A stretch of DNA of 21,413 bases from a virus, in IMG/VR virus record IMGVR_UViG_3300042314_000096, positions 1-21,413 of that record. One strand, given 5' to 3'. Position 1 is the first letter of the stretch. Each line of letters starts with the position of its first letter. Under the pieces are notes generated by a model. That model saw only the letters and a program-made list of their open reading frames with translations. It was not told the DNA's origin and did not search any database. Positions 20,193 to 21,413 of the stretch are shown here, one piece after another. The translations under genes and the position numbers were made by a program.

Positions 20193-20381
20193 TCATTTCT
20201 TCATTTTAGTGCAGATATCTTTACCGTTAACAGTACCGCCATATCGATAGCCTTCCCAACAGGCCGCTCCATCTGCACCTTTTTTCTTTTGATTTGGCTT
20301 ATCTCGGCTACTAGACATTCTTTCACTAGTGCCATCTCGATACATTGTTTTACCATTAACAGTCATTCGTTGTGTTGCCAT
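20193..20381 (-). CDS. Small conserved-type phage protein (GKxMYRxG motif)
   Basis: A 62-residue basic protein with 'VNGKTMYRDGTSERMSSSRDKPNQKKKGADGAACWEGYRYGGTVNGKDICTKMKK'-type features: an N-terminal GKxMYRxG motif, a Lys/Gly-rich linker, then GADGAACWEGYRYGGTxNGKDxC. The latter resembles a short module I recall from aquatic phage genomes without known function. GGAGAAG precedes the ATG, which overlaps the previous stop (TAATG). Confidence 0.72.
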   Translation of the reverse strand: MATQRMTVNGKTMYRDGTSERMSSSRDKPNQKKKGADGAACWEGYRYGGTVNGKDICTKMKK

Positions 20382-20536
20382 TATTTCTTCTCCATAGTTT
20401 TCTTAGGTTCTTTATATCCACTTGCGTGAATAGCTTGCGCTTGCTTCTCTGCATCGGCACGATTTAAATATGGCTTGCCAGTATCACCGTAACGATACAT
20501 TCTTTGGCCTTTAATCATCACTACTTGTATTGGCAT
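20381..20536 (-). CDS. Small hypothetical protein with MYRxG motif
   Basis: A 51-residue basic protein starting MPIQVVMIKGQRMYRYGDTG, then 'PYLNRADAEKQAQAIHASGYKEP'. The N-terminal KGQRMYRYG is a variant of the motif that opens the neighbouring 62-aa protein, so the two may share an N-terminal domain. AAGGATATATCAA is a good ribosome site, and the stop overlaps the next ATG (TAATG). The start lies inside the end of the zinc-finger-like gene. Confidence 0.7.
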   Translation of the reverse strand: MPIQVVMIKGQRMYRYGDTGKPYLNRADAEKQAQAIHASGYKEPKKTMEKK

Positions 20537-20756
20537 TTGATATATCCTTCTTCTTAATACTATTTAGTTCTTTGCACGTGGTCTTATGCTTTATTACACT
20601 GTTAGCAAACTTCAATGTTGTATTACAGTGTTGGCATTTCCACGATGCAAATTCCCATTCACTAAGTCTTACATTATATTTTAATATAAGACTTGTTTTT
20701 ATTGGTGTGTTAACCAATTTGTGTTGTAGATATAGTTGACGTGGATTGTATTTCAT
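20511..20756 (-). CDS. Small protein with zinc-finger-like CxxC...H...C motif
   Basis: An 81-residue protein from ATG 20756 (an in-frame TTG at 20759 is less likely). Residues ~40-60 contain CQHCNTTLKFANSVIKHKTTC, a CxxC-HxxxxC set that could bind one zinc. A basic C-terminus follows. No clear ribosome site is present; the start lies 47 bases inside the upstream gene in another frame, so coupling is possible. A small DNA-binding protein is one option. Confidence 0.55.
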   Translation of the reverse strand: MKYNPRQLYLQHKLVNTPIKTSLILKYNVRLSEWEFASWKCQHCNTTLKFANSVIKHKTTCKELNSIKKKDISNANTSSDD

Positions 20757-21084
20757 CAACTATATATCGTTCTAACAATTCCTTACGTCTGTACCAACTT
20801 TTACGCATATTGTCTTTATGCTCTTGTGACTTAGGCACTCCTAATTTTGCTTCACGCATCTTTTGTTTTTGCTCTGGAGTTTTTGGCACTCCACTACAAG
20901 CTTTGCGAATGCCTTCAGTAACATTGTGTAATGCTTCTGGCGCAAACGGACCAGTGCCACGAATCCAAGGGCCAAATCCTTCAATGACTTTATCACTAGG
21001 TTCTACACCTAACTCAAATCTTTTGATATATTTTTTGCCTTGTGTATCGTATCTGTGATATCTTGTGTACTTTTTTTGTTTCAT
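20710..21084 (-). CDS. NUMOD3-like protein without a visible nuclease domain
   Basis: A 124-residue basic protein. Residues ~64-96 carry two copies of the NUMOD3-type DNA-binding motif (SGVPKTPEQKQKMREAKLG and GVPKSQEHKDNMRKS), found at the C-terminus of GIY-YIG and HNH homing endonucleases. No GIY, YIG or HNH catalytic motif is present. The N-terminus 'YHRYDTQGKKYIKRFELGVEPSDKVIEGFGPWIRGTGPFAPEALHNV' is polar and not recognised. It may be a remnant or a stand-alone DNA-binding protein. Start ATG 21084 lies downstream of promoter-like elements and a repeat-rich gap; no good ribosome site is visible. Confidence 0.7.
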   Translation of the reverse strand: MKQKKYTRYHRYDTQGKKYIKRFELGVEPSDKVIEGFGPWIRGTGPFAPEALHNVTEGIRKACSGVPKTPEQKQKMREAKLGVPKSQEHKDNMRKSWYRRKELLERYIVDEIQSTSTISTTQIG

Positions 21085-21090
21085 AATATT

Positions 21091-21113
21091 ATTTATTTTC
21101 TATAATGTATTTG
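21091..21113 (-). promoter_or_regulatory. Degenerate late-promoter-like elements
   Basis: The coding strand has CAAATACATTATAG and then AAAATAAATAAT shortly before the ATG at 21084. The CATTAT end matches the strong copies but the ATAAATA core is shifted. This is the weakest member of the set. Confidence 0.28.
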
Positions 21114-21156
21114 GTTATTTTTGTTTGTTAACCATTTTATAATCTATCTACTAGCA

Positions 21157-21264
21157 ATAACTGCGTAAAAATAACTGCGTAAAACCGCCAAAATGCTATG
21201 GATGAAAAAAATGCTTTTTATTTTTTTTCTATGCCAGCGACTCCACTCGGATTACGCAGTTATT
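21157..21264. repeat. Tandem 14-bp repeat with a distant inverted copy
   Basis: Two exact tandem copies of ATAACTGCGTAAAA lie at 21157-21170 and 21171-21184. The inverted sequence TTACGCAGTTATT is at 21252-21264, about 67 bases on. Either tandem copy could pair with the inverted copy over 13 bp. The interval between them is A/T-rich with no gene I accept. Three copies of a ~13-base word in a gap without genes suggest an operator, iteron or structured RNA. Confidence 0.7.
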
Positions 21265-21267
21265 TCC

Positions 21268-21413
21268 TTAAAATAGCTCTTGTTTGATGTTATTTGCGTG
21301 TGGTCTAGACCCAAGTTCTTTACCTTTGTCGTCACATATGTTATCGCCAGCTTCATCTGTCTCATTAATGAAGTCATAGATATCAAAAACATATTTTTCT
21401 TTATCTTCGTCTG
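21268..21413 (-). CDS. Unidentified protein, N-terminus beyond window (partial)
   Basis: An open minus-strand frame from the right edge to a TAA at 21268 gives the last 47 residues: acidic 'DEDKEKYVFDIYDFINETDEAGDNI...', then 'ELGSRPHANNIKQELF'. No family is recognised from this tail. The stop is followed by the repeat-rich gap. Confidence 0.6.
   Translation of the reverse strand, partial: DEDKEKYVFDIYDFINETDEAGDNICDDKGKELGSRPHANNIKQELF

Follow-up and report, generated by a model that had tools for sequence, protein, structure and literature searches.

A probable iteron-type replication origin directly 3' of a DUF5906 helicase gene in a tailed phage

The window analysed here is the whole 21,413-base stretch of an IMG/VR virus record, which encodes a large terminase, a portal protein, a tape-measure protein and tail proteins on the minus strand, the strand on which the genes identified in the window are read. 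We report that a small array of direct and inverted repeats lies between two of these genes (Table 1). The gene upstream of the array encodes an SF3-like helicase of the DUF5906 type and is complete in contig L004 (3404-5092; 562 aa, PF19263, E 5.4e-10), the terminase and downstream protein of which are 100% identical to those of the window, while the gap DNA is the same and ~5 kb of extra sequence is present upstream. The gene order in L004 is a 136-aa protein, a 283-aa Prim-Pol (PF09250, E 6.7e-15), the helicase, the array and a 124-aa downstream gene, with Prim-Pol and helicase being separate polypeptides. An open frame ending at 21252 was considered as the upstream gene and rejected, since L004 shows the helicase stopping at 21268-21270. 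Because the helicase gene stops there, all three repeat copies are intergenic, as was originally predicted. The 124-aa downstream protein, for which 19 loci were found, has no Pfam match and aligns with phrog_314 (E 9.1e-5) over residues 65-96. No DNA homologous to 20300-21413 was found in public phages, and tblastn of the window-type helicase gave no match in the phage collection.

Between the array and the downstream gene we noted a promoter-like stretch, the first half of which (AAATACATTAT) recurs at 1557 and 16463 on the minus strand before two other genes; two longer relatives rarely contain the full pattern, with one match in each. Judged by its pattern, the stretch could be a phage-specific promoter.

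Table 1. Features of the array locus in the window, and copies of a conserved element in related contigs
Feature	Location	Strand	Basis or remark
3' end of the DUF5906 SF3-like helicase gene	21268..21413	-	stop TAA 21268-21270; gene runs past the window
Helicase-proximal iteron, AAATAACTGCGTAA on the minus strand	21252..21265	-	2 bp separate it from the helicase stop codon
Spacer separating the iteron sets	21185..21251	.	69 bp between the 12-mers; 38% GC
Distal iteron 1, opposite in orientation to the proximal iteron	21171..21184	+	exact repeat match
Distal iteron 2, tandem copy, 14-bp period	21157..21170	+	exact repeat match and period test
Candidate promoter-like stretch before the downstream gene	21091..21112	-	pattern only
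Conserved downstream gene, 124 aa	20710..21084	-	marks the conserved flank; short homing-endonuclease-like stretch
~88-nt element, L158	4494..4581	+	pattern
~88-nt element, L162	4179..4267	+	pattern
~88-nt element, L028	4824..4911	+	pattern
~88-nt element, L038	4051..4139	+	pattern
~88-nt element, L043	4635..4721	+	pattern
~88-nt element, L047	4666..4755	+	pattern
~88-nt element, L070	1614..1702	+	pattern

The 12-mer ATAACTGCGTAA is present in three exact copies, at 21157-21168 and 21171-21182 on the plus strand and at 21252-21263 on the minus strand. The tandem unit is 14 bp long (ATAACTGCGTAAAA twice, 21157-21184) and the inverted copy agrees with it over 14 bp, so that one proximal and two distal copies face each other in opposite orientation. 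Exact matching thereby confirms the original description of two tandem 14-bp copies and one inverted copy ~67 bases away. The 12-mer also has no further exact copy in the whole record, again as predicted. Allowing two mismatches or fewer gives five sites in total against a shuffle mean of 3.71, which is within chance, and the two additional sites (two mismatches each) fall inside genes. Four 10-mers and two 12-mers occur three times within 110 bp, while none did so in any of 40 dinucleotide shuffles of the window. With a GC content of 0.377 the spacer equals the window mean (0.377) and is no AT-richer than the window; it includes an A/T tract of 24 bp (about 21205-21228).

One interpretation of the array is that it acts as RNA, either as a transcription terminator or as a structured 3' UTR of the helicase mRNA. 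The sense strand folds with -39.9 kcal/mol (z -4.06), and there is a run of five U after the first distal arm. However, a scan of 20600-21413 for terminators (loops of 3-8 only) returned no site and 69 bp separate the arms, no Rfam family reached its gathering score in the window, L043, L028 or L031, and the opposite strand folds as well (z -3.45). Moreover, the tandem repeats extend beyond the stem and their sequence tracks the helicase protein (see below), and we therefore regard an RNA function as very unlikely. The closed RNA suggested in the original prediction is energetically possible (z -2.8 and -4.06), but any inverted pair of iterons gives such complementarity.

Relatives were collected via the terminase and via the downstream gene. 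These retain the downstream gene and, where it is visible, mostly also the Prim-Pol, while helicase and repeat differ. Specifically, the window and L007 have terminases that are 97%, Prim-Pols that are 92% and downstream genes that are 80% identical, and helicases with 29% identity; the corresponding position in L007 carries GTGAACGAT in tandem and inverted copies, repeats which are unrelated to those of the window. The same applies to L017 and L020, with 98% identity between their terminases, 88% between their Prim-Pols and 25% between their helicases; their repeats are likewise unrelated. Conversely, L007 compared with L020, L016 and L031 has a Prim-Pol identity of 57% and a helicase identity of 74-82%, and these loci have the same GTGAACG repeat core. 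In exact Mantel tests on eight records the repeats were associated with the helicase (r 0.85, P 504/40320), and gave r 0.19 (P 11448/40320) with the Prim-Pol, where the L028 entry is a different protein without Pfam match, and r -0.33 (P 34080/40320) with the terminase.

The original prediction named absence of the repeats in close relatives with conserved flanks as evidence against it. The exact word is absent from such relatives, but where the gap is fully visible it mostly holds, at the same position, another array built on the same plan. Direct and inverted 8-mers were jointly in excess in 12 of the 12 regions examined (P of 0.001 or less, 1000 shuffles); direct repeats taken by themselves fell short of significance in L017 (0.094), L116 (0.374) and L010 (1.0). 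The 8-bp repeat words of contigs G001 and G002 are confined to the array place; in G003 a 7-bp word, TTAAGCA, occurs at 13 places and is not limited to the origin.

These comparisons bear on three further interpretations. The array lies ~2.9 kb upstream of the terminase gene and might be a packaging (cos/pac) site, as had been considered. A packaging site is disfavoured because the repeats are unrelated where the terminase is near-identical, as in L007, and the correlation with the terminase is negative; none of seven compared relatives with 86-97% identical terminases has a repeated 7-mer in common with the window. We consider this reading to be almost certainly wrong. Alternatively, the repeats could be template recognition sites of the Prim-Pol, which is encoded in the same operon. 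For the NrS-1 polymerase the cited sections of PMC7102993 describe an 8-nt recognition sequence with one copy per strand in the middle of the genome. Yet the repeats differ between the window and L007 in spite of their closely similar Prim-Pols, and agree between L007 and L020, whose Prim-Pols are far more distant, which together with the low Mantel correlation makes the Prim-Pol a highly improbable reader. Finally, the direct and inverted sites adjoin the promoter-like stretch and could be operators for a phage regulator, with looping of the DNA. The operator pair of the original prediction is compatible with the data, but it does not explain why the repeats follow the helicase and not the downstream gene or its leader, and the chance that it is correct appears slight indeed.

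The natural replacements suggest, on the basis of sequence comparison, that helicase and origin are swapped together between related viruses. In L010 (3028-4509) a DUF3987 protein replaces the DUF5906 helicase, with the Prim-Pol upstream and the inverted repeats downstream retained, which may represent a non-homologous replacement of the initiator.

We then surveyed 43 loci with relatives of the helicase, 38 distinct ones of which had 3' sequence; L173, L180, L182 and L188 were dropped as duplicates and L186 for having no 3' sequence. Left out beforehand were loci of contigs already used, copies of the L017 and L031 regions (L095-L097, L111, L112, L033, L114), type D, in which the helicase is incomplete (L090 and L098), and L010 with its DUF3987 gene; these figure in the comparison of regions above. 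Of the 38 loci, 29 had both direct and inverted repeats in the 300 bp that follow the helicase gene on its 3' side, compared to 3 of 131 controls (Fisher 1.9e-21), the controls being windows 3' of other long ORFs at the same loci. These numbers refer to the middle of three thresholds, and the looser and stricter ones gave 31/38 versus 10/131 and 28/38 versus 2/131, respectively. By this criterion nine helicases are without array (L017, L152, L155, L162, L163, L164, L168, L177 and L181). Among the three control positives are L162 and L163, themselves scored as misses, where the array comes one gene further along the replication operon; the third is L169. At L174 the array starts ~184 bp downstream.

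The repeat period follows the helicase phylogeny. A tree of 36 helicases was computed with a quick method; it leaves out the partial helicases of L116 and L177, and the branch of L028 in it is long and unsure. Periods are long throughout the called members of the 12-locus clade that contains the window (13-15 bp, eight called), and helicases outside it have a period of 8-9 bp (12 rows), with one of 12 bp. Labels were given only where the lag score was at least 11, and a lag of 17 (L163, L176 and L183) received no label. The long/short label changes twice on the tree compared to a mean of 7.1 for shuffled labels, and 0 of 500 shuffles were as low. The period of L017 is not significant (P 0.98).

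Within the window's clade a core G[C/A]GTA[A/G] (GCGTA/GAGTA), on the plus strand in the proximal and on the minus strand in the distal arm, was found at 8 of 12 loci including the window, and L017, L144, L167 and L168 depart partly from this pattern. Tested across clades, the type-A core pattern, which was picked post hoc, reached P 0.0037 only, with four non-A loci having 6-9 matches. Sharing of a repeated 7-mer between pairs of loci (L116 and L177 left out) increased with helicase identity, from 0/207 below 25% through 8/180 at 25-35%, 27/180 at 35-50% and 11/42 at 50-70% to 18/21 above 70%. No repeated 7-mer is common to the window and the loci of its nearest helicases, L017 (66%) and L144 (67%).

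The 300 bp 3' of the L185 helicase contain an unusually large array of long alternating repeats (CAGTTACTTCTTTT and its inverse) with 66 inverted 8-mer pairs. In contig G001 (37,094 bp; L116/L117) the helicase gene is split over both contig ends, and this suggests that G001 is a complete, circularly permuted genome.

For the helicase, a structure model built from 16 relatives had a mean pLDDT of 77.6 and a pTM of 0.66 (an earlier model from eight sequences, pLDDT 49, was discarded). The best match among solved structures was the C-terminal region of the NrS-1 polymerase (6k9c; Foldseek E 2e-13, Z 23.4 over 372 residues), followed by matches that include the SaPI5 primase-helicase (Foldseek E 2.8e-8, Z 17.0 over 371 residues) and, at lower rank, AsfvPrimPol and D5/E5 helicases. 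A profile search agrees (6k9e and 6k9c, E about 3e-8), while phmmer with the helicase alone gave one PDB match (E 0.74). Residues 424-506 have the predicted order H-E-H-H-E-E as in a winged helix (AF2; pLDDT 54-85 in blocks of ten), and residues after about 510 mostly have a pLDDT below 50. The C-terminal domain of the helicase (about residues 424-562) would be the most likely reader of the repeats. The authors of the NrS-1 polymerase study refer to the fold of their Tail domain as novel in the cited sections (PMC7102993).

Position of the array, co-variation with the helicase and the architecture of the relatives strongly support the iteron set of an origin that was among the original suggestions, and we conclude that the array is very probably the replication origin of a tailed phage, with iterons that are read by the helicase encoded just upstream. 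The array, its place and its co-variation with the helicase are observed and the helicase fold is predicted; from these we infer binding by the helicase, melting of the spacer and priming by the Prim-Pol. The SF3-like helicase would bind the iterons, most likely via its C-terminal domain, and the two oppositely oriented iteron sets would seat two helicase assemblies, one on each side of the ~70-bp spacer, as two rings facing each other. The spacer would be melted between the rings, and the Prim-Pol, as a separate polypeptide, would prime synthesis. GC skew, which had been proposed as a check for an origin, does not mark the array: on three long contigs it is positive nearly throughout and tracks the gene strand.

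A different origin mechanism has to be weighed against iterons, namely that origin function resides in a DNA stem-loop (cruciform), as proposed for the plasmid pRN1, and that the tandem copies are incidental; it is compatible with an iteron origin. According to the cited sections of PMC4234260, pRN1 needs a stem-loop of ~100 bp 3' of its prim-pol/helicase gene and requires the integrity of the stem-loop as well as the loop, and a stem-loop is reported in Bordetella phage BIP-1. The 109-bp array region of the window folds with a 16-pair stem (z -2.8 to -4.06), the origin regions of the window and seven others fold into extended stems (z -2.6 to -9.6), and L017 and L028 have inner pairing outside the iterons. 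The full stem is nevertheless not what is conserved, because copy number and spacing on the arms are unequal: there are two copies versus one in the window and three versus two in L020, and the two arms of L020 and of L031 differ in spacing (9 versus 16). In addition, the repeat sequence is common within helicase clades, which structure alone would not require. We thus favour arrays of sites over a stem-loop, given the unequal arms, and consider the latter doubtful.

The pRN1 family and phage BIP-1/BPP-1 nonetheless share with the window a Prim-Pol combined with an SF3 helicase and a ~100-bp inverted-repeat region 3' of the gene. As in pRN1-family plasmids, of which the cited text states that the origin region is poorly conserved between conserved flanks and that plasmid-typical iterons are absent (PMC4234260), the array region here is variable between conserved flanks. 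Unlike in that family, where there is one fused protein, the proteins are separate here and the period in the window is 14 bp. In our analysis the arms have a period of 9 in BPP-1 (0/500 shuffles) and in pRN1 and pHEN7 (P 0.006 each), and no significant period was detected in the origin arms of pRN2 and pDL10. Ten named public loci (five phages and five plasmids; L133-L142), judged by the inverted-repeat and lag tests, include clear arrays in three, which are phage MJing1 (L137) and a Pediococcus plasmid (L138) with period 9 and an Alicyclobacillus plasmid (L139) with period 11, and not in the other seven.

The arrangement is also similar to that of PICIs, whose origins lie immediately 3' of the initiator gene rep and invariably consist of an AT-rich region with an iteron set on either side, an arrangement that the authors describe as not shared by any other known bacterial replicon (cited sections of PMC6092414). 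As in the pri-rep-ori organisation of PICI/SaPI elements, the array is located directly 3' of the initiator gene with two sets of short iterons round a spacer, and the helicase part resembles the fold of the SaPI5 primase-helicase. In contrast to these elements, Prim-Pol (PF09250) and helicase (DUF5906) are separate polypeptides. The spacer has the mean GC content of the window and contains the A/T tract. PICIs are satellites that depend on a helper phage for structural genes, whereas the window encodes its own terminase, portal and tape measure, and because of these genes the element itself is not a PICI, so the array would work like a PICI origin in a different kind of element.

Other initiators offer partial parallels. 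The alpha protein of satellite phage P4 is a primase-helicase initiator with a winged-helix domain that binds origin repeats, as would the helicase proposed here, but its primase is of the TOPRIM type (cited sections of PMC4234260). The NrS-1 polymerase, our best fold and profile match, is a fused protein, unlike Prim-Pol and helicase here (cited sections of PMC7102993). In the PLE satellites of Vibrio cholerae the DNA-binding domain of RepA and the origin iterons co-vary as swappable modules, as helicase and repeats do here, and an origin-directed nuclease may drive the swapping; unlike here, the initiator is of the RepA_N type without predicted helicase activity and there are three semi-palindromic iterons of ~30 bp (cited sections of PMC8263062 and PMC7145576). 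DUF3987 and DUF5906 serve as primase markers for PICMI satellites in a paper in which the word 'iterons' is absent (PMC10803314). Titles and abstract openings of the open-licence literature did not, among the matches listed, mention iterons at pRN1 or at DUF5906 phage helicases.

Taken together with the arrays described here, pRN1-type 'stem-loop', PICI and BPP-1-type phage origins might form one class, a proposal for which we judge the prospects to be evenly balanced. Its members would have two inverted, period-locked iteron sets 3' of the replication operon, with the C-terminal domain of an SF3/D5-like helicase as reader and a period of either 8-10 or 12-15 bp that is determined by the clade of the helicase; helicase and origin would be exchanged as one cassette while the Prim-Pol and both flanks are kept. 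A like organisation is present in 29 of the 38 environmental viral contigs examined, and if the proposal is correct the replication origin of many uncultured phages would be predictable from sequence alone, and the recognition code of SF3-like helicases would be readable by comparison of clades. The swaps of helicase and origin would then parallel the module swapping that PLEs are thought, in the cited sections of PMC8263062, to use against an origin-directed nuclease.

Apart from the arrays, seven distinct copies of a conserved ~88-nt element that ends in a terminator-like hairpin were found in relatives (Table 1), and the same pattern did not find it in the window. L043, L028 and L031 all carry it, and no Rfam family reached its gathering score in them. 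The consensus fold has 27 pairs, 11 of them with a pair-keeping change on both sides, and the element is possibly a new phage small RNA.
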